From positions 1-52,249 of IMG/VR virus record IMGVR_UViG_3300045282_000164: 52,249 nt of DNA. One strand, given 5' to 3'. The notes beneath the pieces were generated by a model that was given only the letters and a program-made list of their open reading frames with translations, was not told where the DNA came from and searched no databases. This DNA is from a virus. Of this stretch, positions 1,078 through 23,182 are shown in pieces (the first letter of the stretch is position 1; every line of letters begins with the position of its first letter). A program made the position numbers and the translations under genes.

Positions 1078-1123
1078 AAGGGCTGTCCTGTGATCACAGC
1101 ATGGGATGGCCCTTTTTCTTTTT
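1078..1123. terminator. Bidirectional rho-independent terminator
   Basis: A 12-bp stem with two G-U pairs (1078-1089 with 1103-1114) carries a loop that itself contains the palindrome TGTGATCACA. On the plus strand it is followed by a T-rich run (1113-1123). On the minus strand the stem is followed by TTATCTTTTT. It can end the plus-strand virion operon and also the convergent HNH gene at 1147-1653. Confidence 0.85.
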
Positions 1124-1146: not shown

Positions 1147-1653
1147 CTATTTCACACAACTTCTAACTCTTCGCCGCCGCCGATTATTAGCCTGTTCCTT
1201 CGGCGTTGCCCATCGGCAATTTGCCGGCTCATAGTCGCCATTATTATTGATCCTATCAAGCTGCAATCCCGCAGGACGATTCCCCATATCAGCAAAGAAG
1301 TTTTCGAATCTTTGCCAACGGTCACACACTTTAATGCCTCGTCCTTTGTATCTGTCGGCCGCATGATTGCGCGGGTTCTCGCAGCGATTGCGCATACCAG
1401 CCCATATTCTAAATTCGACGGAATTACTCATGCCGTGGCGAAAATTAAGTTTTTGAATCTTCTCTACTTTTACACATCCACAGCTTTTAATAGCATTCCA
1501 ATAGGTAAGATTGTTGGCGGCTACAGAAGTCAGCTTCCCACAATCACACCTACAAAACCACATGACGCGCCTCTGTGGACCTTGTCGTTCTGGACTCATT
1601 CCAATAACCACAAGCCGCCCAGAACGTTTGCCAGTCAAATCTTGCAACTTCAT
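1147..1653 (-). CDS. HNH-family (homing-type) endonuclease
   Basis: 168 residues. The N-terminal half has a Cys cluster (CRCDCG, then SCGC about 25 residues later) and an RLVVIG beta-strand start. The second half has HGMSN, a RNRCENP helix, YKGRGIKVCDRW, and the terminal pattern LDRINNNGDYEPANCRWAT followed by an Arg-rich tail. This order is typical of phage free-standing HNH/AP2-like proteins. A good Shine-Dalgarno AAGGA lies 6 bases before the ATG. The gene faces leftward into the terminator at 1078-1123. Its start lies on top of the signal-peptide region of the plus-strand fibre-like gene, which looks like a mobile-gene insertion. Cleavage activity is inferred. Confidence 0.85.
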   Translation of the reverse strand: MKLQDLTGKRSGRLVVIGMSPERQGPQRRVMWFCRCDCGKLTSVAANNLTYWNAIKSCGCVKVEKIQKLNFRHGMSNSVEFRIWAGMRNRCENPRNHAADRYKGRGIKVCDRWQRFENFFADMGNRPAGLQLDRINNNGDYEPANCRWATPKEQANNRRRRRVRSCVK

Positions 1654-3624
1654 TTATTGTCCTTATTCCTTCTCTTGTTTTTACCATGTGTTAATGCTTT
1701 TGGTCAAACCGATACCGGGTTTTTTGTGAGGGCGGATTGCGGAACTTTAACTCCAACCAACAATCAAACCTTGTGTTTGCAATCGACTACGGTGAGCGGG
1801 AGAACTGCAGGTGTTGTTTATGTTTATACATCCGGTGCTTGGACTTCCACCTCGTCAATAGGTTCTGGGGACGTAACTGATGTGCTCGGCACCTCTTCAG
1901 AAATTACAAGCACTAATAGCGGCGGACCAGCTCCGACTCTTTCAATTGCAGATACCTTCCGAATCACAGGTCATGCTGTGACTGCTCCGGTCAAAACTGG
2001 TACGTCTCTTCCTGCTACATGCACAACAGGAGACTTGTTTTTCAAAAGTGACGCGACGGCAGGAAGTAACTTTTATGGATGCACGGGTACAAACACTTGG
2101 ACACTAGAAGGCGGGACTACCGCAGCGGCATCTAGTGTCACGTTTACACCTAATGGGACAATTTCTTCAGTTAACGTTCAATCCGCTGTGCAAGAAGTTA
2201 GGGATGAGGCGCAACCACTTGATGCTGACTTAACCGCCATTGCCGCCCTAGCGACCACTGGGTGCACGGCTAGAACAGCAGCAAATACCTGGGCCAACCG
2301 CACGCTTACCGGCACCACTGGCAACATCACAGTAACTAACGGTGATTGTGTGGCGGGTAATCCTACCTTTGACCTTGGCGCCACGGCAGTCCAGACTGAT
2401 CAATCGAATACCTGGACAACTGGCGATCAGAGCATGGCTGCCGCAGCATCTTGGACAATGCCGGTAGCTACGGGCGCAGCTCCTACGGCAAACGGCAGGT
2501 GTGCTTATGATTCAACCGCGAACCTAATTAAGTGCGGGTTTAACGGCACTACCCTCACGCTTTCCACAACCAGCGTGACACAACCGCTCAGCGCAATTTT
2601 AACATCAATGGCAGGTCTATCCGGTGGACCGCCAGTTAATGCTCAAATTCCCTATTTTACTGGCGCGACCACAGTGAGCTTGGCGCAGTTTGGCCTTTGC
2701 GTGGACAGCGGCGGCCAGCACGTAAACATCACTTCAGTTTCTCCGCTTACCTTTAGCTGTGGCACTTCAAGCACAGGCGGGATTAGCGGAGGGACAATCA
2801 ATAAATATTCGAAGTATTTAAGCGCCACGACTCTGGGGCCAGGGATCTCCACAGACGATGGGACCAATGTCACCATCGGCGGCGGCTTGATCGTCGGTGC
2901 CACTCCTTGGCTGATCGTGGACACTTCAGCCATTGCAGCCAGTGATAAAACCTGGACAGTCCTAAACTTCAGTGGAACGGTTCGGCCTTCGACGGGCGTA
3001 TTTACCCCTGGCAACATTGTAACAACCAATGCCAACGGGTTGTTGATTGATGGTGGCGCGGCTGGCGCAGGAACGTGGACCGATGCAAGTGCAAATACGG
3101 GAACAAATAAAATTCTAGTCGATTCACTTGCCGGTGGAACGAACACACTGACCCTTGGCATTAGCGCTTCCTTTGACGGTGGTTCACTCACGGCAGACGG
3201 CACTAACTGCCAAGACCCCGTTAAGGTCACGATAAACTCTGGGCCAGCTCAATATGCCATTTTGTGTGCAACGCCAAACAGCGCCCAATTCGATGCAGTT
3301 CTTATTGATCTTAAGCATGCGCTAGCAACGATTAAGGTGCGGCTCAAGGCAAACGATACTGTATCCACGCAAACCCTTGCGGGAACATTTAAAGCTCAAT
3401 GTAGAGCAACCGGGACAGCACCGAGCTCGACGTGGGGCAGCACCCAAACGGTGAGCATCACATTGACTACATTAAACACTACCTATGAGGGGTTGACGGC
3501 AGCCATCACTCCCAACGGCACATGCTCCGCTAATTCGGATCTTTACATCAGATATAACGCTACGGGGGGATCTAATTCAGCGACGACAAGAATTTTGGGG
3601 CTAGGGATAGAGCAGCAATCATGA
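1642..3624 (+). CDS. Exported tail-fibre-like protein
   Basis: The frame is open upstream to 1141, but that part is antisense to the HNH gene and is not protein-like. Real coding begins at a hydrophobic signal peptide ending CVNAFGQ. TTG 1642 or TTG 1657 are the likely starts; neither has a clear ribosome site. The mature part is Thr/Ser/Gly-rich and carries fibre-style phrases: DADLTAIAAL, TWANRTLTGTTGNITV, and VQSAVQEVRDEAQ. The last 120 residues look like a beta-sandwich. The composition fits a trimeric fibre or adhesin, but a Sec signal peptide is not expected on a virion protein. The stop overlaps the next ATG by 4 bases. Confidence 0.65.
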   Translation: MQLHLLSLFLLLFLPCVNAFGQTDTGFFVRADCGTLTPTNNQTLCLQSTTVSGRTAGVVYVYTSGAWTSTSSIGSGDVTDVLGTSSEITSTNSGGPAPTLSIADTFRITGHAVTAPVKTGTSLPATCTTGDLFFKSDATAGSNFYGCTGTNTWTLEGGTTAAASSVTFTPNGTISSVNVQSAVQEVRDEAQPLDADLTAIAALATTGCTARTAANTWANRTLTGTTGNITVTNGDCVAGNPTFDLGATAVQTDQSNTWTTGDQSMAAAASWTMPVATGAAPTANGRCAYDSTANLIKCGFNGTTLTLSTTSVTQPLSAILTSMAGLSGGPPVNAQIPYFTGATTVSLAQFGLCVDSGGQHVNITSVSPLTFSCGTSSTGGISGGTINKYSKYLSATTLGPGISTDDGTNVTIGGGLIVGATPWLIVDTSAIAASDKTWTVLNFSGTVRPSTGVFTPGNIVTTNANGLLIDGGAAGAGTWTDASANTGTNKILVDSLAGGTNTLTLGISASFDGGSLTADGTNCQDPVKVTINSGPAQYAILCATPNSAQFDAVLIDLKHALATIKVRLKANDTVSTQTLAGTFKAQCRATGTAPSSTWGSTQTVSITLTTLNTTYEGLTAAITPNGTCSANSDLYIRYNATGGSNSATTRILGLGIEQQS

Positions 3625-4241
3625 AGATCTTACCAGTTCTTTTCATCCTTCTATTCCCTTCGCTGGCATCGGCAGCTTGCCACGTTTACTTTATGCCGGC
3701 GGTTAGCACTTCTGATTTTGTTCAACCTAAGTACAGTTTCTCCACATCAGGCTCGTTTATACCATTCGGTGGACAAGGAATTTATTTAGCTGCCGCTGAT
3801 ATAGGCAGTACTGAGGACGCAGCTTTAACAGCCAATGCCGATGTTACCGCCGTTCCCGATAACCTAGATCAGCAGATAGGCGCGGGAGCTCTCGCTAAGA
3901 TTCAAACCGCACTAGAGAATCGCAACATTCCTGCTGGCTGGTTGACGGCGGCAACGACATACAGATCAGCATTGAGAACCATTGTTAATATGTTCAAATT
4001 CTTTCAGAAGTTTATCGCCGTGACCCATATCACCGTGCCGGTCATTACCGGGGCGATCACTCTAAACAGCACATTCAATTCACTCAGCGCAGCCAATCGC
4101 CAGCGGCTCATCGATACGGCTACGGCGTTAAGCTTTGACACTTCCGGGCTCACGGGCGCGGCAACCATGCGCCAGATTCTCAAGGCCATAGCCGATCAAT
4201 ATGGCTCTCCACCAGTAGTCTTGGGGTGTGTGACGATATGA
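3621..4241 (+). CDS. Small exported protein, unknown function
   Basis: 206 residues, beginning with a clean Sec signal peptide (residues 1-18, ending SLASA before ACHVYF). The ATG overlaps the preceding stop (ATGA), so it is translationally coupled to the fibre-like gene. The middle (about 70-130) is helical with AGALAKIQTALENRNIP and a YRSALRTIVNMFKFFQKF segment. The pattern resembles the hypothetical partner proteins that follow fibre genes in many environmental phages. I do not recognise a defined family. It likely acts in the periplasm or outside the cell if the signal is used. Confidence 0.7.
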   Translation: MKILPVLFILLFPSLASAACHVYFMPAVSTSDFVQPKYSFSTSGSFIPFGGQGIYLAAADIGSTEDAALTANADVTAVPDNLDQQIGAGALAKIQTALENRNIPAGWLTAATTYRSALRTIVNMFKFFQKFIAVTHITVPVITGAITLNSTFNSLSAANRQRLIDTATALSFDTSGLTGAATMRQILKAIADQYGSPPVVLGCVTI

Positions 4242-4918
4242 AAAGGCTTTTTCTCTCTCTAATTTTTGTCCTGTGCTTGGCTACCAACTCATGGGCGGTT
4301 ACAGCATCGGACACTTTAGCATCCTATGGCGATGGCAACTTGAGCGTACTCAATGCCAACTGGCCGATCCTAAATATCGACGAGGGTTCTTTGTTTATTG
4401 CGTCGGGATCGGCAGATGTGGATGTTTTCTTTGGTAGTAACTATCGAGGTGATATTTCGCCCGGTGCTAGCCAGTTCTCTCAGGTGCAAATAACACAGCT
4501 TAACGTAGTTAACGAGGCATGGGTTAAACTATTCGTCAGAGCGCAGGCGGCTGATTCGATCACCGATACTTATATCTGTGTCGCTGTACGTAACGCTCAA
4601 GGTTCTCCCTACAGCATAGGGACGACATCTGTAATCTCAGTTGTTTCAGGTACTATCGAATCGCTGATTGCCTCGGAGTCATCAACGAGTTGGTCGGCAG
4701 GCGACACCCCGAAGTGTGCCATGACCGGGACAACCATCACCATGTACCGCAATGACGTTGCATTGCTCAGCACCACGAATGGCAGCTACGCCACCGGTAA
4801 TGTTGGGTTTGGATTATTTTCAGATCGTTACTCTGGCGGAGATACGTTCCTCAATAACTGGCTTGGGGGTGATATCTCGGTTGTTGGGACCGCTAGGCAT
4901 AGGCCGGTGATTCAATGA
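4238..4918 (+). CDS. Exported lectin-fold (concanavalin-like) protein
   Basis: 226 residues from ATG 4238, which overlaps the previous stop (ATGA). It has a Sec signal peptide ending NSWA before VTASD. The body reads as a jelly-roll lectin/glucanase-type beta-sandwich: a lead segment (YGDGNLSVLNANW), alternating hydrophobic strands, TITMYRNDV, and the closing GNVGFGLFSDR followed by FLNNWLGGD. Such domains bind or modify polysaccharides. No catalytic residues are evident, so binding is more likely. It is coupled to the following beta-helix gene, and the two may act on the same glycan. Confidence 0.65.
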   Translation: MKRLFLSLIFVLCLATNSWAVTASDTLASYGDGNLSVLNANWPILNIDEGSLFIASGSADVDVFFGSNYRGDISPGASQFSQVQITQLNVVNEAWVKLFVRAQAADSITDTYICVAVRNAQGSPYSIGTTSVISVVSGTIESLIASESSTSWSAGDTPKCAMTGTTITMYRNDVALLSTTNGSYATGNVGFGLFSDRYSGGDTFLNNWLGGDISVVGTARHRPVIQ

Positions 4919-7512
4919 AGAGGCTTCTACTTGTTTTATTTTGGTTGATTTTATCGTTGCCAGTTTTCGCGCAGGCAACGACACGCTACGTCATTCCTAG
5001 CGCTGGGGGTACGGGATGCTCAAACGGTTCAACTAATTATCATGTTGGAAGCAACACATGCAGCGGTGGGGCGGATCAGGTCGTTTATACCACGATCCTC
5101 AATGGCCTTAACGCGATGAACGCTTGCGACACATTGACTATCCGCGGGGGAAATTACACCGAGAAGCTCGACGTGACGGGCTTTACTTGGCCATGCTCCT
5201 CTTATAATTCTCCGACTCTAATCCAGGGACAGCCCGGCGAAACAGTTACCTTAACCCCAGCTAGCCCAGATGCGACGATTCACACCAATGCCGAAGGCAC
5301 ATGGCCGGCGATAGCTCAAACTTACATAATATTTAAACATATCAAAATCGACGCACGAAACCTGAACCCACATTTCGGAAACTCTGCTACTTCTATTAGT
5401 CACTTTACGCGATTTGATGACATTGATATCTGCTGCGTTGGCGATAATGCGGGAACAAACCGGATAAGTGGGATCGGGGTTCAAGTCGGAGATGATGTAG
5501 AGATCATCAACTCGAATATTCACGATTACGGATTGAATTTTTTTCAACCCTTCAACTATACCCAAGCCGATATTGATAACGGCACGGCGCTCGGCGGGTT
5601 TGGGTTTTATGGCGTCTATTGGGGTGGCGCTAATGGAGTGCTGCGCAATACTACGTTTTCAAACATCGGTGCGTTTTGCATCCATCAGTACTCTTTTACC
5701 CATGTTTCAGGCCTGGATAATTTTTTGGTGGAAGGTAACACCTTCAAGAATTGTGGCGGGTATATGTACAATTCCCCAGCTTCGGGAACTCCTCCAGGCT
5801 TTATCTTTCCTGGCCAGAAAGCTAGCACTGTGGCAATTCTAACTTCGGGCCATAACGCTATCTTTAGGAACAATCTATTAAATGGAAACCTCTTTGGTGA
5901 AGGAGTGGTCGTAACGTTTTTCTCGTCGGGCTTCCAGATTTATAACAACACAATCAGGGGTATGAGCACGTCAGGTATTTTTGTTGATGGTGGTCCGACA
6001 AATTTGTCCATTCACGATAATATTGTAGTGGACAACGGAATTAATTTCTCTAACGGCGACAATCCTGGAACTCCCACATACACTAGAAACCTGTGCTCCG
6101 CCGCTGGCGGGACACCATCCCCGCAATGCACCGGCAGTCTTACAGAACTATCGTCAGCCACCTTTGTAAACAATACGAATGATTTTCATTTGAAGGCTGG
6201 CAGCAAAGCAAGAAATGCCATTCCTTTAGGGCAATGCTTGACAAGTGTTGACGTTACTGGACTTGCTCGCCCACAGGAAAATTTATGTGACATTGGTGCT
6301 TACGAGTTTGCTAGTGCGAGTAATGTACCGCCGACAATTACCATTGGGGCAATCGCTGGTCTGTCGTCGTGCACAACAGTTGGTTCCGTGACCACCTGCA
6401 ATACGGGCAACTCGACAATAATTCCGCTGGGCACAGCAACGGATTCAGACGGGACTATTTCGAGCGTTGCTTATACCTGCAATAGATGTGGGGCTAGCAG
6501 CGGAGCCGGATCAGGAAGTGCGTCCTTGACCCTACCAAACTGGACTATCGGAACCATTCCCGTTCCGATTCAGCTCCATGCGGGGATAAACACTCTCATC
6601 ATAACAGCAACAGATAATGGTGGGGCTGCAACTGCACGGACTTTAGTTGTAAATTATACTCCTACTTTTCCAGGTAATACGATGGCTCTAGGCCTAGCCT
6701 GTGATGAGGGATCGGGCACAACTTGTGCTGATTCCAGCGGCAATGGCAACACGGCGACCCTCATCAGTGGAGCTACGTGGACCACGAGCGGTCGATTCGG
6801 CAAAGGGGTTGTATTAGATGATGCCCTACATCAATACATCAACGTGCCTGATTCTAACTCACTAGATTTTACTCAGTCATTCACGCTCTCTCTTTGGGCG
6901 TTCCCAACAGCTTCCATGACCGGCTTCAACGCCTTAATAACTAAAGGCGATGCGCTTCAACGATTGTACGCCAGCGCATCAAGCGATAGCTGCTCTGTAA
7001 CAGGCAACGGCAGTCCCTTTGGAATCTTCAAAACTAACGGGATTCTAGGCCCTGACTTTCAAGTTTGCGGAACTCCACCACTGGCAATAAATCAATGGTC
7101 ATATGTGGCCCTGACATATAACGGTTCTGTACTCAGCTTGTGGGTTAATGGCGTGTTGGCCAATAGTATCTCCGGTGCCGGGTTAATGGAACCAAGCGCG
7201 TTACCTTGGCAGATCGGCGCCAGCCAGTTCGGTGAATATTTTAAGGGGGTCGTGGATGAAGTAAGATTGTATAACTATGCCATCCCACGCTTCAGCGGCG
7301 TGCAGAACGCGGCAGGCATCGGCGGCGCATGTATAGCCGGGACTATTCCAGGATCGCCCACGGCAGGCAACATTTATTTCCTTGACCCGCCGTCAATAGT
7401 CAGGGACATGGCCTGCGGTATCACGCCAGGGGCGCCGCCACTAGCAATCAAAATCCCAGCCAGCGCAACAGGGTTAAAGCTATCAGGTGTAGTCAAGTTT
7501 GGATCGAGGTAA
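4915..7512 (+). CDS. Exported beta-helix / Ig-like / LamG multidomain protein
   Basis: 865 residues. A signal peptide (1-20, ending PVFAQA) is followed by a right-handed parallel beta-helix (about 25-420). The helix has Asn/Asp-rich rungs such as NNTIRGMSTSGIFVDGG and FRNNLLNGN, and ends with the choice-of-anchor-type phrase DVTGLARPQ...CDIGAYEF (about 440-465). Next is an Ig/PKD-like domain (about 470-580, ending NTLIITATDNGG), then a LamG/concanavalin domain (about 590-800; SGNGNTATL, YINVPDSNSLDF, LWVNG, VDEVRLYNYA). This is the architecture of secreted bacterial polysaccharide-binding or lyase proteins. It could be a depolymerase-like adhesin. It starts inside the previous stop. Confidence 0.8.
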   Translation: MKRLLLVLFWLILSLPVFAQATTRYVIPSAGGTGCSNGSTNYHVGSNTCSGGADQVVYTTILNGLNAMNACDTLTIRGGNYTEKLDVTGFTWPCSSYNSPTLIQGQPGETVTLTPASPDATIHTNAEGTWPAIAQTYIIFKHIKIDARNLNPHFGNSATSISHFTRFDDIDICCVGDNAGTNRISGIGVQVGDDVEIINSNIHDYGLNFFQPFNYTQADIDNGTALGGFGFYGVYWGGANGVLRNTTFSNIGAFCIHQYSFTHVSGLDNFLVEGNTFKNCGGYMYNSPASGTPPGFIFPGQKASTVAILTSGHNAIFRNNLLNGNLFGEGVVVTFFSSGFQIYNNTIRGMSTSGIFVDGGPTNLSIHDNIVVDNGINFSNGDNPGTPTYTRNLCSAAGGTPSPQCTGSLTELSSATFVNNTNDFHLKAGSKARNAIPLGQCLTSVDVTGLARPQENLCDIGAYEFASASNVPPTITIGAIAGLSSCTTVGSVTTCNTGNSTIIPLGTATDSDGTISSVAYTCNRCGASSGAGSGSASLTLPNWTIGTIPVPIQLHAGINTLIITATDNGGAATARTLVVNYTPTFPGNTMALGLACDEGSGTTCADSSGNGNTATLISGATWTTSGRFGKGVVLDDALHQYINVPDSNSLDFTQSFTLSLWAFPTASMTGFNALITKGDALQRLYASASSDSCSVTGNGSPFGIFKTNGILGPDFQVCGTPPLAINQWSYVALTYNGSVLSLWVNGVLANSISGAGLMEPSALPWQIGASQFGEYFKGVVDEVRLYNYAIPRFSGVQNAAGIGGACIAGTIPGSPTAGNIYFLDPPSIVRDMACGITPGAPPLAIKIPASATGLKLSGVVKFGSR

Positions 7513-7515
7513 ATT

Positions 7516-7890
7516 ATGACCAATGACCAGATTACGGCGATCATAACGGCACTGGCAACAATAGCGACGACTATCTATGCAGCGTGGAAAGCGTCTCAAG
7601 CTTCGAAAGCAGCGAGTCAGGCTGTTACGGCAGTCAAGGCTGTAGACGTTAAGGTTGATACGGTTACAGACCAAAACGACAAGCAGCAGGACAAACTTGA
7701 CGAGGTTCACAGCCAATGGAATTCACGCCTTGATGAATGGAAAAGGGACCAAGCTAAGGCTACGGCGGCGGCAATTGCAACGGCACTAGAGGCGGGCAAG
7801 AAGATAGGTGCTGATGAACAGCGAGCCATAGCCGAACAAAAGGCCAAGGATGTTTTGCTTGCGGTAGACGATAAGGAGAAAAAACAATGA
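7516..7890 (+). CDS. Membrane-anchored coiled-coil protein (lysis-type candidate)
   Basis: 124 residues with one N-terminal membrane segment (about 6-25), then an Ala/Lys/Gln/Asp-rich coiled coil that includes a VDVKVDTVTDQNDKQQDKLDEV heptad region (written in parts: VDVKVDT, QNDKQQDKLDE). Ribosome site GAGGT lies before the ATG. Topology fits an inner-membrane protein with a long soluble helix, like i-spanins or holin partners. It sits directly before a two-helix membrane protein and upstream of a lipoprotein and lysozyme. The lysis role is inferred from context. Confidence 0.6.
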   Translation: MTNDQITAIITALATIATTIYAAWKASQASKAASQAVTAVKAVDVKVDTVTDQNDKQQDKLDEVHSQWNSRLDEWKRDQAKATAAAIATALEAGKKIGADEQRAIAEQKAKDVLLAVDDKEKKQ

Positions 7891-8087
7891 GTCTATTCAT
7901 TCGTGTTCTTTATGTATTGCTAGCTATCGCCTTTGTGGTGTTGGCTTACTACGTGGTGATTTGGGTACTAGCAATGTTAGGGATTATGGTGCCGGACCAT
8001 ATCCTCAAAGTTGTCTTTGTGATCCTGGGGTTGCTGGCTGTGATCGGTGCACTTAGCGGTCGGTTTGATAATTTCTGGAGGGCTTAA
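7887..8087 (+). CDS. Putative holin (two-helix membrane protein)
   Basis: 66 residues with two hydrophobic segments (about 6-33 and 39-57) separated by the short turn MVPDH. The tail is short and polar (SGRFDNFWRA). Size and topology match class II phage holins, which permeabilise the inner membrane for the endolysin. Start overlaps the previous stop by 4 bases, and the next gene starts on its stop. A membrane peptide of other function cannot be excluded. Confidence 0.6.
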   Translation: MSLFIRVLYVLLAIAFVVLAYYVVIWVLAMLGIMVPDHILKVVFVILGLLAVIGALSGRFDNFWRA

Positions 8088-8479
8088 TGGCTAAGCTAAC
8101 CGGACAGTGGGTGTGGGTGGATAAACGGTTAACCAAACTAGAAAAAGTACTGGTTAATCAGGTGATGGGGATTGGGAAAATTGTTGCAGACATTAATAGA
8201 AAGGTAACTAAAATGGCTGATGATCTAAAGGCAGCAAATGACGCATTGGACGCAAGTGCGCAGTCTCTTACAGACATAAGCGCGAGTCTCAGTAACATCG
8301 TGGCTGATGAAGCCAAGTTGAGTACGCAGATTGCCGACTTGCAGGCTCAACTGGCAGCTGGCGGCGGTGTCTCGGCGGCAGATATGGCAGCATTGGCTAG
8401 TAAAGCCCAGGCTAACCAAGCCGCGTTAAAGTCAGTAGCAGATGCAGCAAAGGCCGCAGCGGATGCGATACCTGATTAA
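8087..8479 (+). CDS. Coiled-coil protein, unknown function
   Basis: 130 residues. A strong GGAGGG ribosome site precedes ATG 8087. A second in-frame ATG at 8213 (residue 43) has its own AAAGGT site, so a shorter product starting MADDLKAAND is possible. The C-terminal 85 residues are an Ala/Ser/Asp/Leu heptad repeat typical of coiled coils. No enzyme motif is visible. It lies between the holin candidate and the Fn3-like exported genes. Confidence 0.6.
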   Translation: MAKLTGQWVWVDKRLTKLEKVLVNQVMGIGKIVADINRKVTKMADDLKAANDALDASAQSLTDISASLSNIVADEAKLSTQIADLQAQLAAGGGVSAADMAALASKAQANQAALKSVADAAKAAADAIPD

Positions 8480-8783
8480 ACTTCTCTGTCTTGCTGGAGG
8501 TTTGGGAATAGCAATTAATGCCCAGGCCTTCAGCGACACCGCAACCCTCACCTGGACAAACAACGATACCAGCCAAGCTATCAGGGGCTCACGCATAGAG
8601 GTATCCAAGGATGGCGGCCAAACCTGGGCAGTGGCATATACAGTAGGGCGCGGGGTAACCACAAGGATTGTGCTGCTCCAGGCTGGGCAAAGGTGGTGCT
8701 ATAGGGTCAGGGCTTATACTAATGCTGCGCAATCAGATCCATCAAACGTCACTTGTGCTACAGTGACAGTGACGACAGGTTAG
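8463..8783 (+). CDS. Exported Fn3-like protein
   Basis: 106 residues from ATG 8463, overlapping the previous gene by 17 bases. It has a signal peptide ending INAQA before FSDTATLTW. The mature 80 residues form one fibronectin-III/Ig-like sandwich: TLTWTNND near the start, RWCYRVRAYT as the F strand, SDPSNVTCATV at the end. Two Cys residues could form a disulfide in the periplasm. It pairs with the next gene, which has the same layout. Confidence 0.65.
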   Translation: MRYLIKLLCLAGGLGIAINAQAFSDTATLTWTNNDTSQAIRGSRIEVSKDGGQTWAVAYTVGRGVTTRIVLLQAGQRWCYRVRAYTNAAQSDPSNVTCATVTVTTG

Positions 8784-8791
8784 GGAGGGTT

Positions 8792-9208
8792 ATGGTTAAA
8801 CTAAGTGTCATTTTGGCCGTGTTCTTGTTCGCTTCAGTTGCCGAGGCTCAGATCGTGACCTGTGTTCCCACTTACGCCAAGGGATGTGTGCTTACCTTGT
8901 CTTGGCAAAACAACCCTGCACCAGATGGTGCCTATCTAGGCTTGCATGTTTGGCGCAAGCTCAACACGACAACTTACCCAACGACACCATTTGCCACACT
9001 AGGTCCTAACATTACGAGCGTAGTGGACACAACCCTGGCGCAAAGTCCTACCGTAGCCAATAATTATACCTACGTGGTGACGGCCTTTAATAGCTCAGTT
9101 GTTGGCATTAACCAGGAATCACAGGTGTCAAACGAGGTTGCCTACACCGTGCCAGTGTTGCCTGTGATTAATGTTCCTATCGCGCCTTCTAATGCGAGGT
9201 TACAATGA
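8792..9208 (+). CDS. Exported Fn3-like protein
   Basis: 138 residues from ATG 8792, placed by the GGGAGGG ribosome site. It has a signal peptide ending VAEAQ before IVTCVPTYAKGC. The mature part is an Fn3-like fold: VLTLSWQNN, then YLGLHVWRKLN, NYTYVVTAFNSS, and QVSNEVAYTVP, followed by a Pro-rich tail. It likely acts extracytoplasmically as a binding module. It is the second Fn3-type exported gene in a row, and its stop overlaps the lipoprotein start. Confidence 0.65.
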   Translation: MVKLSVILAVFLFASVAEAQIVTCVPTYAKGCVLTLSWQNNPAPDGAYLGLHVWRKLNTTTYPTTPFATLGPNITSVVDTTLAQSPTVANNYTYVVTAFNSSVVGINQESQVSNEVAYTVPVLPVINVPIAPSNARLQ

Positions 9209-9507
9209 AATATTTATGGATTCTGTTGCTGTTATGCTCGGGTTGCGTCGATATGTTTACCGCCAAAACACAAGCCACTTACACCATATCACCGGACGGC
9301 AAGACAATCTCTTACATCTCGAATAAAGAACAGCAAGGGTTAAAACTCCACCTTGAGGAAGTCAACGGCAAACCGACTGTCGTAGACATCTCCGTCGATA
9401 AAGCCGACACACAGCAAGAGGCAATCGCAGCGGCGCTCCAGACTCAGCTCGGGTTACAGCAGATTATTAAGGGATTGTTAGATAAGGCAGCGCAGGGAGG
9501 AAAGTGA
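9205..9507 (+). CDS. Lipoprotein (outer-membrane spanin-like candidate)
   Basis: 100 residues. MKYLWILLLLCSGC is a signal sequence with a lipobox (L-C-S-G-C), predicting lipidation at Cys14 and export to the outer membrane. The mature chain has a short beta region (YTISPDGKTISYIS) and a helical C-terminus. A lipoprotein near holin, coiled-coil membrane protein and lysozyme fits an o-spanin or a superinfection-exclusion lipoprotein; the sequence does not decide. Coupled to the tiny gene at 9504. Confidence 0.65.
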   Translation: MKYLWILLLLCSGCVDMFTAKTQATYTISPDGKTISYISNKEQQGLKLHLEEVNGKPTVVDISVDKADTQQEAIAAALQTQLGLQQIIKGLLDKAAQGGK

Positions 9508-10205: not shown

Positions 10206-10237
10206 GAACTACGTTCGCATATTAAACTAAGTTGTCA

Positions 10238-10669
10238 ATGATTTTGGCTAATCTTGAATCGTTTTTAATTCGTCACGAGGGGAACCGGCTCAAACCTTAC
10301 CTTGATACCGTGGGCAAGATCACCATTGGGATAGGCCGTAACCTTACCGATGCTGGTATCTCGCCGGCCGAATCTCATTACCTGCTGTGCAACGACATAA
10401 GCAAGACAATCGCCCAATGTCGGCAACAGCTTCGGTGGTTTGACTCGCTTAATGGACCTCGGCAGATGGTAATCATAGATATGGTTTTCAATATGGGGAT
10501 TGGCCGTTTTCTAGGCTTTCATGATACTATCGCTGCGATTGAAGAGGGAGATTACAAGCTTGCAGCTTCTCGGATGCTTGACTCGAAATGGGCATTGCAA
10601 GTTGGGCAGCGCGCGCTTGAAGACGCAAACATATTTTTGACCGGGGAATATGTTGAAGGGACTGTTTAG
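10238..10669 (+). CDS. Endolysin, T4-type lysozyme (GH24 muramidase)
   Basis: 143 residues from ATG 10238; a TTG at 10232 is also in frame. Glu14 (HEG), Asp23 (YLDTVG) and Thr29 (TIGIG) have the exact 9- and 15-residue spacing of the T4 lysozyme catalytic triad E11-D20-T26. Size is close to the usual 145-165. It hydrolyses the MurNAc-GlcNAc bond of peptidoglycan. No signal peptide is present, so release depends on a holin (candidate at 7887). The last 143 bases overlap the minus-strand HAF-repeat gene tail to tail. Confidence 0.92.
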   Translation: MILANLESFLIRHEGNRLKPYLDTVGKITIGIGRNLTDAGISPAESHYLLCNDISKTIAQCRQQLRWFDSLNGPRQMVIIDMVFNMGIGRFLGFHDTIAAIEEGDYKLAASRMLDSKWALQVGQRALEDANIFLTGEYVEGTV

Positions 10670-11756
10670 GGTCTGTGGGCACGTCTTTCGCAGACACCGT
10701 TGATTGAGTCGCTATAAACCCACCGCTTGCTCTCTTGCACTCGCTCGGCAGATGGGGCGGCAAGCAGTTTAGAGAAGCAACGTATTGCCCTGCAAGCTGG
10801 CCATTGTCATTTAAACCGTTGATATCATACTGCGCAATGAGTCCATTGATCGTAGGCGGCAAGCTAATTAGATAGAACGCACCATCATCCACGAGATACC
10901 AACCGAACTGTCCTATCTCATTGGTGTAAAGCATGACGCTTTGCCCCAAGTTATTCAGATCCACTATCTCAACACTCGAGCCCCCAGGCATAAAGTCAAA
11001 TGAGGGCGGGAATGGAAAATCCCAAATCCCGTTGTCATAGATAAACCAATAATGGGCCACGGTGTTGAACGTGTTGGGGTCGTACATGGTGAAGTCACCC
11101 AAAATCTGGTTGTGATTATTAATTGCCCACAAGGTTGTATAGCTATTCGCCACGGGCACATCAAACGGCAGATATAGATTTTGCGAGGAGTTATTGTACC
11201 AGCAAAAACCATGGATCCGGGTAGGACCGAACTGGTTAGGGTTTGTGAACGGGTTGACGTACTGGCCGCACACATCACCGTAATCGTTGGCACCAAAGCC
11301 GAGGGTGCTCTGAGCGCCTGGAAACATTAGCAGGGTGTATTGACCGATCTTGTTAAACAAAAACCCCATCTCATTACCGGCACTATCCGCGCATAGGCCG
11401 GCTGCATCGGCGCGGGCGTTGATTGTAGTAGCTCCTACCTGAGTAGGCCCGCCACCACAGTCAAGCGTTCTAGTTTGGCCATTGGTGTAGCGGACGGCGT
11501 TGGCCATGACTAGATCACCGTTGTTGTTGATGTCCTGTAAGGCGACCGCGGTCGTTTGGATAGTGTAAGGTATGACTTGAGAATAGGCAGGGATGGCGAT
11601 CAACAGCAGCAAGACAGGTAATAGTAGTTTGGCAGCGTCCTTTTTCGCTGCCTCTTTCATTTCCTCCCGCCAAACATGCACGAGCCCATTAAACACTTGA
11701 ATCAGGTTAGCCATATTATGACCCCAGGCTTCCAAATCCTTTAAAATCTGTTCCAT
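10527..11756 (-). CDS. Exported HAF-repeat protein (moron-like)
   Basis: 409 residues from ATG 11756. An alternative start at 11660 (residue 33, GGGAGGAA just before) gives a classical signal peptide MKEAAKKDAAK then a hydrophobic core ending IPAYSQ. The mature part has imperfect HAF-type beta repeats: INNNGDLVMAN, GANDYGDVCGQY, INNHNQILGDF, LNNLGQSVMLY, LNDNGQLAGQY. Such repeats occur in secreted bacterial proteins, notably of Acidobacteria. It is the only long minus-strand gene, so a moron carried for host benefit or surface change is plausible. The last ~48 residues are antisense to lysozyme. Confidence 0.75.
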   Translation of the reverse strand: MEQILKDLEAWGHNMANLIQVFNGLVHVWREEMKEAAKKDAAKLLLPVLLLLIAIPAYSQVIPYTIQTTAVALQDINNNGDLVMANAVRYTNGQTRTLDCGGGPTQVGATTINARADAAGLCADSAGNEMGFLFNKIGQYTLLMFPGAQSTLGFGANDYGDVCGQYVNPFTNPNQFGPTRIHGFCWYNNSSQNLYLPFDVPVANSYTTLWAINNHNQILGDFTMYDPNTFNTVAHYWFIYDNGIWDFPFPPSFDFMPGGSSVEIVDLNNLGQSVMLYTNEIGQFGWYLVDDGAFYLISLPPTINGLIAQYDINGLNDNGQLAGQYVASLNCLPPHLPSECKRASGGFIATQSTVSAKDVPTDPKQSLQHIPRSKICLRLQARAAQLAMPISSQASEKLQACNLPLQSQR

Positions 11757-19365: not shown

Positions 19366-19893
19366 ATGACAAAGAGACTCCAATACTCACAACTTAGGAA
19401 GATGGCACTAGAGAAGCTTGGCGCTAAGTGTCGGCGTTGCGGCTTTAAGGATCGGCGTGCGCTTCAGTTTGACCACGTTCACAGTAATGGAGCCGAGGAA
19501 CGTCGCCAGTATGGAATGCGCAATCTGGAGGTCATGTATGTCAAGATCATTGAAGGCAATACGACCGACTATCAAATACTTTGCGCCAATTGTAATTGGA
19601 TCAAGCGAGCAGAGAAAAACGAGAATCGATTAGGTTCGAGTAATTACAGCAGGATTAAGCATAGGTCTTCATGGCGGGCAGACGTAAAATTGCCCGCCCA
19701 GGCAGTTCACGTTAACGGACCCGTCGCATCCGTCTTTAATTCAAGCAGCGGCCAGGAACCGGACCCCGACCAGAACAGGGGGCAGCGAGCCGGTTTTGAT
19801 TTGGAACGTGGACCCCGAGATACAGTGTCAGAAGAAATACAAAAGCCAGGTGAACAAATGTCCAGCCTGGCTAATGTAACGACTGACCTATAA
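19366..19893 (+). CDS. HNH endonuclease
   Basis: 175 residues. CRRCGFKDRRALQFDHVHSNG, then ILCANCNWIKRAEKN: paired CxxC zinc knuckles bracketing the D-H and N residues of an HNH nuclease. The last ~75 residues are Pro/Gly/Asp-rich and probably disordered, unlike the compact family. No strong ribosome site. May be a stand-alone homing enzyme or a packaging-associated nuclease; position far from the terminase favours the former. Confidence 0.8.
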   Translation: MTKRLQYSQLRKMALEKLGAKCRRCGFKDRRALQFDHVHSNGAEERRQYGMRNLEVMYVKIIEGNTTDYQILCANCNWIKRAEKNENRLGSSNYSRIKHRSSWRADVKLPAQAVHVNGPVASVFNSSSGQEPDPDQNRGQRAGFDLERGPRDTVSEEIQKPGEQMSSLANVTTDL

Positions 19894-19907
19894 CGGTATT
19901 GGCATAC

Positions 19908-20002
19908 CTGTCCTAGTAATCTCACACCTCTCGTGGATTATCAATAGGGACAGAGAGGGAATCGCTACGGGAACGGGTGTGTCCTAAAGATTTGGAGGTG
20001 TG
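19908..20002 (+). promoter_or_regulatory. SD-sequestering leader with alternative pairings
   Basis: In the 109-base gap, CACACCTC (19923-19930) is the perfect complement of GAGGTGTG (19995-20002), which contains the ribosome site of ATG 20003. Nested inside, GGACA (19948-19952) pairs with TGTCC (19980-19984). The same segment extended, GGACAG (19948-19953), can instead pair with CTGTCC (19908-19913). Two exclusive folds suggest a switch. Confidence 0.5.
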
Positions 20003-20194
20003 ATGGACTTCGACGAGCGGGCGGAAGAGATAGTGGATTTTATGGTGTTTAACAACCGTGGGGATAGAGTTGATTTGATTGCCGCCGCGCTCCGTGAGGC
20101 TTATGAGGCAGGTTTACAGAAGGCAATGGACACGGTTGATAGGCGCGGGCTGGTTTCAATTAATCAGCTAAAGGCCCTCAAGGTGAAATCCTGA
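20003..20194 (+). CDS. Hypothetical protein
   Basis: 63 residues from ATG 20003; GGAGGTG lies 4 bases before. Acidic and helical (FDERAEEIVDFMVFNN, IAAALREAYEAGLQKAMD). No family recognised. Translation may be controlled by the leader structure at 19908-20002. Stop overlaps the next start (TGATG). Confidence 0.6.
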   Translation: MDFDERAEEIVDFMVFNNRGDRVDLIAAALREAYEAGLQKAMDTVDRRGLVSINQLKALKVKS

Positions 20195-20355
20195 TGGGCT
20201 TATTTGTTTGGGTTTTACTTCTCACAATTGGCGGTAACGATAATTACTTAGGTGTTTATAGGACTCAGCAATACTGTGAGATCATCATGGCAGGGCTCAA
20301 GATAGAGAAACCGGCGCGTGTGCTACGGTGCGAGAAGCAAGAGGTGAGGGGCTAA
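20194..20355 (+). CDS. Small membrane-anchored two-Cys protein
   Basis: 53 residues: MGLFVWVLLLTIGG anchor, then QYCEIIMAGL and VLRCEKQE with Cys 18 apart. Same plan as the 55-residue protein at 12531. Unknown function; the Cys pair would lie outside the cytoplasm if the anchor is used. Confidence 0.6.
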   Translation: MGLFVWVLLLTIGGNDNYLGVYRTQQYCEIIMAGLKIEKPARVLRCEKQEVRG

Positions 20356-20360
20356 TCAAA

Positions 20361-20792
20361 ATGACACAATCAGAAGTCAACGCACACATGGCTAAGTTTA
20401 AGCCTACGCGGGCCCAGGAACGACGATTGGCCAAATTGACACCCAATCCCAGGCCTCAGCAGACTGATCGGCGGACCTCCCATAAGTACGGTGCCGTTAA
20501 AACCGAGATTGACGGGTATAAGTTTGACTCGAAGCGTGAAGGCGAAAGATACCGCGAGCTGGTGTTAATGATAGCAGCCGGCGAAATAAGCGGGTTAATT
20601 GTGCATCCGGTATGGCCGATCCGTCATAAGGATGTGGATATCTGCTTTGTCATTTTGGATTTTAGCTACTGGGATAAGCGAGCGAATACAATTGTGCATG
20701 AGGATGTGAAGGGTTTTGACACGGCGGTTAGCCGGTTGAAGCGTAAGTTACTGCTCGCCTTTTATGGAATTAATGTGAGGGTGATTAAATGA
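20361..20792 (+). CDS. DUF1064 family nuclease-like protein
   Basis: 143 residues from ATG 20361 (GAGGGG before). The core HKYGAVKTEIDGYKFDSKRE, then ERYRELVLMIAAGEI, ILDFSYW, VHEDVKG and LLLAFYGINVRVI is the DUF1064 pattern. These phage proteins have a PD-(D/E)XK/resolvase-type fold (here Glu60, Asp100, Glu114/Asp115 and Lys117). A role in recombination or branched-DNA resolution alongside SSB and the RecB-like nuclease is inferred. It overlaps the next gene by 4 bases. Confidence 0.85.
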   Translation: MTQSEVNAHMAKFKPTRAQERRLAKLTPNPRPQQTDRRTSHKYGAVKTEIDGYKFDSKREGERYRELVLMIAAGEISGLIVHPVWPIRHKDVDICFVILDFSYWDKRANTIVHEDVKGFDTAVSRLKRKLLLAFYGINVRVIK

Positions 20793-21139
20793 GCGAAGAA
20801 CTTATTAGGCAAGCAAAGACAGTGTTTTCGGATCCTCATGCCGAGATTACCCGCCTCGAGCGGGAGAATGCTGAGCTGCAGGATAAGATAGTCGGGCTGG
20901 AAAAGGATAATAAACAAGCATTCGAGCTAGGTTGGCAAGCCGGCAATGATGCCCAAGAGTTGATGGAGGAGAAAATAGCTAGGTTGGAAAAGGTGGTGGA
21001 GGCGGCAAGCAAGGTTATGGCTGTCTACAATGACTTCCCTGATGGTGATATGTGCTTGGCCATGCAGGAATTTAGTGGATTGAATAATGCTATCGCTGAC
21101 ATAAATTATCCTTGCACAAAGGGCCAAAGTGGCACATAA
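20789..21139 (+). CDS. Coiled-coil protein
   Basis: 116 residues with a heptad-rich N-terminal half (ITRLERENAELQDKIVGLEK, MEEKIARLEKVVEAASKV). The C-terminus has two Cys. Common accessory-type phage protein. No known activity. ATGA overlap with DUF1064. Confidence 0.6.
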   Translation: MSEELIRQAKTVFSDPHAEITRLERENAELQDKIVGLEKDNKQAFELGWQAGNDAQELMEEKIARLEKVVEAASKVMAVYNDFPDGDMCLAMQEFSGLNNAIADINYPCTKGQSGT

Positions 21140-21146
21140 TGAATCC

Positions 21147-21224
21147 ATGCCATGCCCATATTGCGGATCTGGCCCTTATCCTCATTTGACATCGTGTCCA
21201 CTTTATAGACCAGTGAGCAAATGA
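21147..21224 (+). CDS. 25-residue zinc-ribbon peptide
   Basis: MPCPYCGSGPYPHLTSCPLY plus five residues: three Cys and one His suit one zinc ion. ATG 8 bases after the previous stop. Its stop overlaps the next ATG (ATGA). A very short product, supported by motif and coupling. Confidence 0.45.
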   Translation: MPCPYCGSGPYPHLTSCPLYRPVSK

Positions 21225-21307
21225 TCCTCGGCATTATCTACGGCCTGGTTGGGAGTTTTGTGTATTTCGTGCTGGTGATGTGGCTGGCGAATTATTTGAT
21301 TCCATGA
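21221..21307 (+). CDS. 28-residue membrane peptide
   Basis: MILGIIYGLVGSFVYFVLVM plus eight residues: one hydrophobic helix. ATGA overlap with the zinc peptide. Similar in size and style to the 23-residue peptide at 9504. It is the last plus-strand gene before the minus-strand operon. Confidence 0.45.
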   Translation: MILGIIYGLVGSFVYFVLVMWLANYLIP

Positions 21308-21355
21308 GGTGGGAGCCTGCCAGAAAACCCGCGTTATCTATCAGGCGAGGGGGGA

Positions 21356-21505
21356 TTAGTCCCAATGAATGATGCCGGTTCCATGTGGCTTTGGTTCCAT
21401 GCCGAACAAGTAACAAAACTGATCGCCGATCCACAATTCATCTAAATGCCAAATGCTATCAGGAAATTCTTGCAATCCTCTGACGATATCTTTAGTTGAA
21501 TACAT
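21356..21505 (-). CDS. Small protein, end of minus-strand operon
   Basis: 49 residues: MYSTKDIVRGLQEFPDSIWH, ending GTGIIHWD. Preceded by a strong GAGGAGG site that overlaps the end of the upstream gene. Trp/His-rich. No family recognised. Confidence 0.6.
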   Translation of the reverse strand: MYSTKDIVRGLQEFPDSIWHLDELWIGDQFCYLFGMEPKPHGTGIIHWD

Positions 21506-21507
21506 AA

Positions 21508-21744
21508 CTAATCCTCCTCAATCATGGTTAGTTGGCTGGCGTCAATCCATTTTTGGCCCTGGCCACCGATCGGCTCGATCAGGGCATCAATGCGGCCAAA
21601 GGCTTTCTTTGTGTCTAGGATACGGACCGGGAATTTCATGCGGAGATTAGAGAACATAGCTGTTTTACCAATGAGATTAGATAGAGCAATGGTGCTCATT
21701 TGTGCGTGGAATTTGGCTGTGTCTTCTGGTGTGCGTTCAATCAT
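21508..21744 (-). CDS. Small protein, minus-strand operon
   Basis: 78 residues from ATG 21744, with GAGGT before. TAMFSNLRMKFPVRILDTKK and RIDALIEPIGGQGQKWIDAS suggest a small beta-barrel, resembling short phage proteins of unknown role. It overlaps its upstream neighbour by 8 bases. Confidence 0.6.
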   Translation of the reverse strand: MIERTPEDTAKFHAQMSTIALSNLIGKTAMFSNLRMKFPVRILDTKKAFGRIDALIEPIGGQGQKWIDASQLTMIEED

Positions 21745-21952
21745 GGGACACCTCGACGATCTTAGCCAATTGGGCCTTTGCGTTATCAGAAAAATCACGG
21801 GTATCAATAGTTTCCATAAGATGCTTCTTGCACTCACGGTAGAAACCAACGGAGTTGAGCTGGACTATGTCAGTTAGTACAGCATACCCCTTGCGTTTAC
21901 AGCCAGCGAAAGCACAATGGCCACCGCGTTCAATTCGTATTTCCAATGTCAT
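21737..21952 (-). CDS. Small Cys/His protein, minus-strand operon
   Basis: 71 residues from ATG 21952, preceded by AAGGAGG. HCAFAGCKRKGY and ECKKHL give a C-x4-C...C-x2-H zinc-type site. The C-terminus is helical. Possibly a zinc-stabilised DNA- or protein-binding domain; no family certain. Confidence 0.65.
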   Translation of the reverse strand: MTLEIRIERGGHCAFAGCKRKGYAVLTDIVQLNSVGFYRECKKHLMETIDTRDFSDNAKAQLAKIVEVSHD

Positions 21953-21984
21953 TTTCGTTCCTCCTTGGTTGAGCACGTTAATGG

Positions 21985-22167
21985 TTAGCACAGATGAGAT
22001 ACGCCAAGCCGCTTTGCATTTTCATAGGCTTGCTTTGTCTTCTCTTCAATGGCTCTCTGGCCTACTGTGGTTACAAAGACTGAGCCTAAATAGCGGTCTT
22101 CCTGCTGTAATGCGAACTCATAGGCTTTCACGGCTGCTTTCTGTTCCTTGGTCAACTTGGTTTCCAT
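21985..22167 (-). CDS. Small helical protein, minus-strand operon
   Basis: 60 residues from ATG 22167 (AAGGAGG 8 bases away); ATG 22173 is also in frame. Helical, KEQKAAVKAYEFALQQEDRY then AIEEKTKQAYENAKRLG. First gene of a leftward operon of four. The operon's promoter region also drives the rightward terminase gene, so one member may be a regulator, though no HTH is obvious. Confidence 0.6.
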   Translation of the reverse strand: METKLTKEQKAAVKAYEFALQQEDRYLGSVFVTTVGQRAIEEKTKQAYENAKRLGVSHLC

Positions 22168-22186
22168 GTTCATGTCCTCCTTGCCT

Positions 22187-22192
22187 ATTATA
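22187..22192 (-). promoter_or_regulatory. -10 box of leftward promoter
   Basis: Minus-strand TATAAT 20 bases before ATG 22167. No good -35 hexamer at the usual spacing, so activity may need an activator. Confidence 0.4.
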
Positions 22193-22241
22193 CTTAGCAA
22201 GCACAATGCCAACGAGATTAATCAATGAAATCAATGCTAGG

Positions 22242-22250
22242 TGTTATAAT
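22242..22250 (+). promoter_or_regulatory. Extended -10 promoter for terminase region
   Basis: TGTTATAAT is a perfect extended -10 (TGn-TATAAT). The -35 region is poor, which extended -10 promoters tolerate. The -10 runs into AATTAGT, one of the ATTAGT half-sites. Expected start near 22257. Confidence 0.55.
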
Positions 22251-22290
22251 TAGTAGGGATAACCAGTCAAACTTGTGTGAGGTTAATACG

Positions 22291-22309
22291 GATTAGTGGT
22301 TGACTAATC
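22291..22309. promoter_or_regulatory. Inverted repeat GATTAGT-N5-ACTAATC
   Basis: A perfect 7-bp dyad around GGTTG, between the extended -10 promoter and ATG 22361. It is similar to ACTAATTAGT inside the promoter at 11893. Operator for an unknown regulator, or an RNA hairpin. Confidence 0.5.
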
Positions 22310-22360
22310 ATACAGTTTAGGGAAGCACGGACTTAATATTTCATCGTTTAGGGGGCAATA

Positions 22361-22834
22361 ATGACACCATTGAGTGAGGCTGCTAAGGCCGTGGAGCTGG
22401 TGGAGACGTTGGGGTATAGCAGTAGCAAGGCTGGATTGGTATTGGGCTTAGCTAAGCATAGTGTGACGGATATTATTAACGGGGTTAGTGGTTGGAATGA
22501 GCGCAAGCAGGAACCCCTCTTTGCACGCTACCGCCAGGAACAGAAAGCAATTCTCATCCATGCCATGACCCAATTGACCAGGGAAAGCCTGATTCATGCC
22601 TCGCAAAACCTTCATAAGGCCTCGTATTCACAGGCAATTGTTGGATCAGCCATTTTGATTGACAAGACAAGGTTGCTGGCCGGCGAGCCCACCGAGATCA
22701 CCGCCAGCATTGAGCTTCACGCGGTGGGCAGCCTGGATAAGCTAGCGAATTTATTGAGCCAATCCCTGGTTGGCGAGGGCAGCATGGGGGCACCTATGGG
22801 GGCACCTGTGGACATTACCCCAACTAAAGTCTAA
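22361..22834 (+). CDS. Putative terminase small subunit
   Basis: 157 residues, GGGGG ribosome site. An N-terminal helix-turn-helix (ELVETLGYSSSKAGLVLGLA, then HSVTDIING) is followed by long helices (AILIHAMTQLTRESLIHASQ) and a flexible end with a GAPMGAPVD repeat. DNA-binding HTH plus an oligomerisation helix pair is the layout of small terminases, which recognise the packaging site. It lies 3.2 kb before the large subunit, farther than usual. A transcription regulator is the main alternative. Confidence 0.45.
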   Translation: MTPLSEAAKAVELVETLGYSSSKAGLVLGLAKHSVTDIINGVSGWNERKQEPLFARYRQEQKAILIHAMTQLTRESLIHASQNLHKASYSQAIVGSAILIDKTRLLAGEPTEITASIELHAVGSLDKLANLLSQSLVGEGSMGAPMGAPVDITPTKV

Positions 22835-23002
22835 TCATATCATATGCTTGCAAGGTTAGTTCTGTTCCTAGTTAGGCAATCACATTGAGTGTTAGAGTAG
22901 CGGATGGTATGGGCTTGGGGCGGCATGGGCTTCCCCCCACCGTCATGTGGGTTCGCCAAGGAGTCCTTTCTCCCCACCACAACATTAAAAAAGGCCAAAT
23001 AA

Positions 23003-23182
23003 GTGAATGAATACAAGGTTTATCCTCCACCTGGGCATAAATCCTGTGAGCACACCCGAGGCCACTGCACGATTTGCCAAATGAAGTGGGAAGTGTATGA
23101 ATACGTTTACGATTTGGACGAAAAGCAGCGGCTTGAGCTTTACCGCTGGATGCATGAGGTATTGAATTGCCGGATCTACTAG
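23003..23182 (+). CDS. Small zinc-binding protein
   Basis: 59 residues, GTG start 23003. CEHTRGHCTICQMKWEVYEY has three Cys and two His in a zinc-knuckle spacing. The C-terminal half is helical with Tyr/Asp. AAAAGG lies before the start. No family recognised. Confidence 0.55.
   Translation: MNEYKVYPPPGHKSCEHTRGHCTICQMKWEVYEYVYDLDEKQRLELYRWMHEVLNCRIY

Follow-up and report, generated by a model that had tools for sequence, protein, structure and literature searches.

In the tail-fibre and lysis part of the genome of a soil phage, a block with seven signal-bearing genes separates the internal virion genes from the lysozyme gene; it is read here, with a probability of about 0.55, as a late adhesion module whose exported products would act after release mostly as soluble proteins. 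Sec export of these proteins with disulfide folding is well supported by their signals and cysteine pattern, the conservation of the block in a related genome, its likeness to a block in cultured phages of Acidobacteriota, and the signal-free LamG proteins that served as controls. The proteins are probably folded in the host periplasm and released at lysis. Such a route is unusual for tail-fibre-type phage proteins, whose folding and assembly are assumed to be cytoplasmic.

Genome and Position of the Block

The window, which is the whole stretch of 52,249 bases analysed here, forms its own virus record. A 200-base direct repeat is present at both ends (1-200 and 52050-52249; 199/200, one mismatch). 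Although listed as linear, the record is thus effectively complete and represents a circular phage genome; the gene ending at 894 runs on across the circular join. Genes for portal, capsid and tail lie at about 26-51 kb and distantly match a circular phage from spring water (MW202601), its "phage stabilization protein" among them. The link to lysis drawn in the earlier note is supported by position, as the block brackets the holin-like gene and is followed by the lipoprotein and phage lysozyme genes (Table 1). The product of 7887 is a probable second lysis membrane protein.

Table 1. Features of the block and of the other predicted exported genes, in order of position. Genes are named in the text by their first base; the block order is that of the rows from 1642 to the lysozyme gene.
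Feature	Coordinates	Strand	Basis and remarks
Terminator-like hairpin, 15 pairs	1078..1114	+	TTTCTTTTT; between end of structural operon and block
HNH-type endonuclease-like gene	1147..1653	-	Motif by eye (LDRINNNGDYEPANCRW); abuts fibre gene
Tail-fibre-type protein, 660 aa	1642..3624	+	Hydrophobic signal region LQLHLLSLFLLLFLPCVNAFG; 14 mature Cys; phrog_697 structural protein, E=1.4e-14
Exported protein, 206 aa	3621..4241	+	Predicted signal ...SLASA/AC; 2 mature Cys; no relatives found
Exported protein, 226 aa	4238..4918	+	2 mature Cys; 26-28% identity to G001 counterpart
Exported adhesin, 865 aa	4915..7512	+	Signal; 22 mature Cys; right-handed beta-helix, choice-of-anchor Q (aa 421-465), LamG (aa 639-790)
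Holin-like protein	7516..7890	+	phrog_263 holin, E=9.9e-5
Small membrane protein, 66 aa	7887..8087	+	Up to three hydrophobic stretches; counterpart by position in G001
Predicted coiled-coil protein, 130 aa	8087..8479	+	No signal; ORF call and Pfam search
Exported Fn3-like protein, 106 aa	8463..8783	+	2 mature Cys; Pfam fn3, E=2.4e-4, below gathering score
Exported small protein, 138 aa	8792..9208	+	Predicted signal; 2 mature Cys
Lipoprotein, 100 aa	9205..9507	+	LLCSG/C, +2 Val; 0 mature Cys; 52% identity to G001 lipoprotein with LSG/C lipobox
Phage lysozyme (endolysin)	10232..10669	+	PF00959, E=3.3e-10
HAF-repeat-type protein	10527..11660	-	Signal MKEAAKKDAAKLLLPVLLLLIAIPAYS/Q; 8 mature Cys; outside operon; HAF reading by eye
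Small exported Cys protein, 55 aa	24052..24219	+	Predicted signal; QCTTQ...CTTC...C; 4 mature Cys; early region, far from block

Secretion Signals

The seven plus-strand genes for which Sec signals or a lipobox had been claimed all exist; six have clear Sec or lipoprotein signals, and that of 1642 is weaker. Classical N-termini are found in 3621 (MKILPVLFILLFPSLASA-A), 4238 (MKRLFLSLIFVLCLATNSWA-V), 4915 (MKRLLLVLFWLILSLPVFA-Q), 8463 (MRYLIKLLCLAGGLGIAINAQA-F), 8792 (MVKLSVILAVFLFASVAEA-Q), and 9205 (MKYLWILLLLCSG-C). The first five of these show the features recognised by signal peptidase I (positive n-region, hydrophobic core, small residues at -3 and -1), and the lipobox of 9205 ends in the Cys that signal peptidase II needs, with an unusual Cys at -3. 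Signals were called with a home-made heuristic (not SignalP) and by eye; the heuristic missed 3621 in one version and 9205 in another, both obvious by reading. In 3621, 4238, 4915, and 9205, the start codon and the stop of the gene before it share a four-base overlap (ATGA), and the signal-bearing starts are thus well defined.

The only other heuristic positives among the called genes of the window are 7887, a holin-like membrane protein, and the weak case 18501. All seven signal genes are confined to an arc of 11 genes out of about 60 (p about 3e-5, by a rough count). Chance was rejected on the basis of this clustering and of the Cys parity described below, and wrong start calls on that of the overlapping start codons. 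The earlier estimate of about nine exported products stands, since the minus-strand gene starting at 11660 and 24052 also carry good signals; an NCBIfam search with the HAF-type product gave no match. In the block proteins, no C-terminal transmembrane segment or sorting signal was recognised and no catalytic site was identified.

Gene 1642 resembles a tail fibre in sequence type (phrog_697) and in genomic position (T7-like order). It starts with TTG and lacks both K/R residues and a Shine-Dalgarno sequence; the hydrophobic core and cleavage region remain. The start is weak because the small minus-strand gene 1147-1653, for which a Pfam search gave no match, abuts 1642 and has replaced the original start; the minus-strand gene has its own start overlapping the signal region of 1642. 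In the related genome G001, no HNH-like gene lies at the junction where the fibre gene follows the internal virion gene; there the fibre gene has a GTG start, a textbook signal (MKKLFWIFLLLLASNAAYA-Q), and a 4-base overlap (GTGA) with the stop of the internal virion gene. The strong terminator-like hairpin and the HNH-like gene (1078-1653) have removed the start of the fibre gene and its translational coupling in the window. Expression of 1642 in the window phage is uncertain, and so, with this damaged start, is its export.

Cysteine Content and Parity

Cysteines were counted after removal of the signals, which makes this test independent of the N-termini. In the order of Table 1, the seven mature block proteins contain 14, 2, 2, 22, 2, 2, and 0 Cys, and those of the G001 block 18, 4, 24, 26, 0, and 4, all even numbers. 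The two exported products encoded outside the block (8 and 4 Cys) are even as well. Among non-exported structural proteins of the same clade, used as controls, 12 of 30 non-zero counts are odd; a Fisher test on parity gives p=0.018 against these controls and 0.0005 against all controls. Cysteine makes up 2.0-2.3% of residues in block proteins vs. 0.6% in non-exported structural proteins. An even and enriched content would be expected if all cysteines were paired in disulfides in an oxidising compartment. Cysteine content alone is no proof, since the structural regions also encode Cys-rich (2.2-2.3%) yet non-exported proteins (window 34026-34997; G001, L008:9109-10398).

Domains and Folds

The earlier note had assigned adhesin-type folds throughout the block. 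LamG and the beta-helix of 4915 are secure (Pfam LamG 2e-22, Beta_helix 5.6e-9) and the fibre repeat of 1642 is supported; the Fn3 match of 8463 is sub-threshold, the lectin-like fold of 4238 comes from a low-confidence model, and an Ig fold is unsupported in the window. The choice-of-anchor Q match of 4915 (NF041518, 3.2e-9) reaches 36.9 bits against a curated cut-off of 25. This domain is known from exported bacterial surface proteins; the protein type also needs a C-terminal sorting or anchor segment, and none was recognised in the block proteins. Structure prediction, which the note had proposed for every product, was run for 4238 and 9205 and gave low confidence for both (pLDDT 42 and 45). 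The model of 4238 produced jelly-roll glucanase and galectin matches, which at this confidence are only a hint; the protein is possibly a concanavalin-A-like beta-sandwich. It ends in GTARHRPVIQ, resembling FVRHRVIQQ in its G001 counterpart.

The lipoprotein 9205 lies in the lysis region. Outer-membrane spanins are short lipoproteins, largely helical or proline-rich, that pair with an inner-membrane spanin; no paired i-spanin was identified for 9205, and its low-confidence model consists of strands followed by helices. Searches of INPHARED found no match for 1642, 3621, or 9205 (the last against 50,697 phage records) and, for 4915, only LamG-domain matches, and PDB sequence searches returned nothing useful.

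Similar short C-terminal tails were noticed post hoc in otherwise different block proteins: GVVKFGSR in the window (4915-7512), MQGVTLNGQIVIQ in G001 (L009:8044-11070), and, in the cultured phages described below, MQGVKVQGARIQ (Tunturi_1 gp14), GGKLSFGQSVSH, and LGVAFIQGRIN (L025:15931-18690, 19474-23028; L029:40019-42325). Such a shared tail is possibly a docking strand, a post hoc suggestion.

Related Genomes

The block, which had been proposed as something to look for in related phages, was found in G001 (IMGVR_UViG_3300025965_000001, 51,909 bp), with a signal on every counterpart; G002 has the same sequence over the shared region. Identity between G001 and the window is 72% for the capsid, 47% for the portal, and 26-52% for the block counterparts (blastp). 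The more distant G003 (capsid 42%) has, at the block position, genes without signals and with 0.3% Cys, then hydrophobic proteins and a lysozyme-like protein matching Tunturi endolysins, so only some members of the window lineage have the exported block. In IMG/VR, capsid, tail-accessory, and fibre queries recovered only G001/G002, a 10.8-kb contig (G004), and G003, and portal and lipoprotein queries found no relatives. One Methanolobus match in a scan of genome contigs was taken as chance.

Blocks in Cultured Phages of Acidobacteriota

Cultured Acidobacteriota phages, checked as controls (Tunturi_1-4), proved positive in the podoviruses Tunturi_1 and Tunturi_2 and in the siphovirus Tunturi_4. 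All three resemble the window in carrying tail-region runs of signal-bearing, Cys-rich beta-helix, fibre, and Ig-type proteins with 4-base start/stop overlaps, and in Tunturi_1 and Tunturi_2, which have the same block, it adjoins the endolysin region as in the window. In Tunturi_1, N-terminal signals occur on gp12, gp13, gp14 (annotated tail spike), gp16, and gp17 (annotated virion structural protein); the four large ones (gp12, gp13, gp14, gp17) have 20, 10, 20, and 32 mature Cys, and gp16, with one, is the only odd count. A TTG at 15964 that overlaps the gp13 stop gives gp14 a clean signal (MKRIALLLLLCPVLANA), and the annotated start upstream (L025:15931) is probably wrong. In Tunturi_4, gp113 and gp114 have signals and 8 and 20 mature Cys, and gp113, like 1642, carries tail-fibre-type repeats. 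No block of this kind is present in Tunturi_3, which infects the host of Tunturi_1.

The choice-of-anchor Q domain follows this distribution: it occurs in the block beta-helix protein of the window, G002, Tunturi_1, and Tunturi_2, falls below the cut-off in Tunturi_4, and is absent from the blockless phages G003, Tunturi_3, and MW202601. The structural genes of Tunturi_1 and Tunturi_3 are unrelated to those of the window (blastp); with no Tunturi_1 relatives of the window structural proteins, the trait would be common to these lineages by convergence or module exchange. We infer, from the Tunturi likeness only, that the window host is an acidobacterium. The main text of the Tunturi paper mentions neither signal peptides nor mass spectrometry or SDS-PAGE (PMC11924767).

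Comparison with Other Phages

T7 shares with the window the order of internal virion proteins, tail fibre, holin, and spanins or envelope lysis proteins. Unlike the block proteins, T7 gp17 has no signal and 0.5% Cys, and the window has several exported genes in place of one fibre. LamG domains also occur in structural proteins of cyanophages and of Rhizobium and Flavobacterium phages, which resemble 4915 in this respect; unlike 4915, the LamG virion proteins of these phages and of Burkholderia phages, which are the closest phage proteins to the LamG part of 4915, lack a signal and contain 0-0.44% Cys. The heuristic caller found zero or one signal-like gene each in T7, G003, and MW202601. The lambda gene lom, an example of phage conversion and outer-membrane genes, lies in the tail region (PMC12309495) and, like the block genes, encodes a protein with a signal; it is a single beta-barrel protein, whereas the block comprises large adhesins beside lysis genes. 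No description of signal-bearing tail fibres or fibre blocks was found in the open-access literature, which is not proof of novelty. Nor was any virion proteomics found for these phages.

Proposed Mechanism and Alternatives

Synthesised late, the block proteins would cross the inner membrane via Sec and form their disulfides in the periplasm, where, having no C-terminal membrane anchor, they would be held and stored until lysis; the lipoprotein 9205 would sit in the outer membrane. Holin, lysozyme, and envelope rupture would then release them. The most likely use of the soluble proteins would be to keep new virions from becoming trapped on debris and matrix, by binding or cutting surface glycans in the surroundings of the lysing cell. 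Capsule remodelling, the blocking of rival phages, and biofilm dispersal, the purposes put forward in the earlier note, would be hypothetical roles.

The main rival, possible though not probable, is that the large proteins are virion appendages whose maturation, with disulfides, takes place in the periplasm and which join completed virions only once lysis brings the compartments together. The first block gene lies where T7 has its tail fibre, the G001 fibre gene is coupled to an internal virion gene by the GTGA overlap, 1642 and Tunturi_4 gp113 have tail-fibre-type repeats, and depositors labelled some Tunturi homologues "tail spike," "tail protein," or "virion structural protein." In T4 and P22, fibres or spikes are well established to join particles that are already complete. 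However, we know of no Caudoviricetes fibre with a cleavable signal, no virion-attachment domain was seen in the block proteins, and the window phage also encodes non-exported fibre candidates (36511, 37189, 46365). It is doubtful, though conceivable from the sequences, that in tailed phages of Acidobacteriota and their relatives the fibres are exported via Sec and acquire disulfides in the periplasm, with the virion being completed only at lysis; if true, this two-compartment assembly route would be new for Caudoviricetes, for which none is known.

It is unlikely that the proteins act on the living cell, whether infected or lysogenic, for instance to exclude other phages. Phage conversion genes do typically encode exported proteins and lipoproteins, and both the HAF-type gene and 24052 are located outside the operon, but the block is embedded in the late region beside holin and lysozyme, and no integrase was found among ten window proteins tested. 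Tunturi phages, moreover, showed lytic cycles though integrase genes were predicted (PMC11924767). As to the independent transcription expected of conversion genes, a hairpin separates the block from the structural operon in the window, and G001 couples the two. Least probable, and very much so, is that the signals are non-functional, being hydrophobic N-termini on ordinary cytoplasmic fibres or products of wrong start calls. The heuristic scoring and the missing positive n-region of 1642 leave some room for this, but starts are fixed by overlaps in several genes and phages, every G001 counterpart has kept its signal, and Cys enrichment and parity are independent of the N-terminus.

Significance

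An exported, disulfide-rich adhesin block recurs in three phage lineages, namely the window clade, Tunturi_1/2, and Tunturi_4. This recurrence would mean either that free extracellular adhesins are deployed at lysis, the reading preferred here, or that the last steps of virion assembly take place outside the cytoplasm. Either possibility is open to experiment, as Tunturi_1 and Tunturi_4 have cultured hosts. The labels "tail fibre" and "virion structural" on such genes may be wrong.
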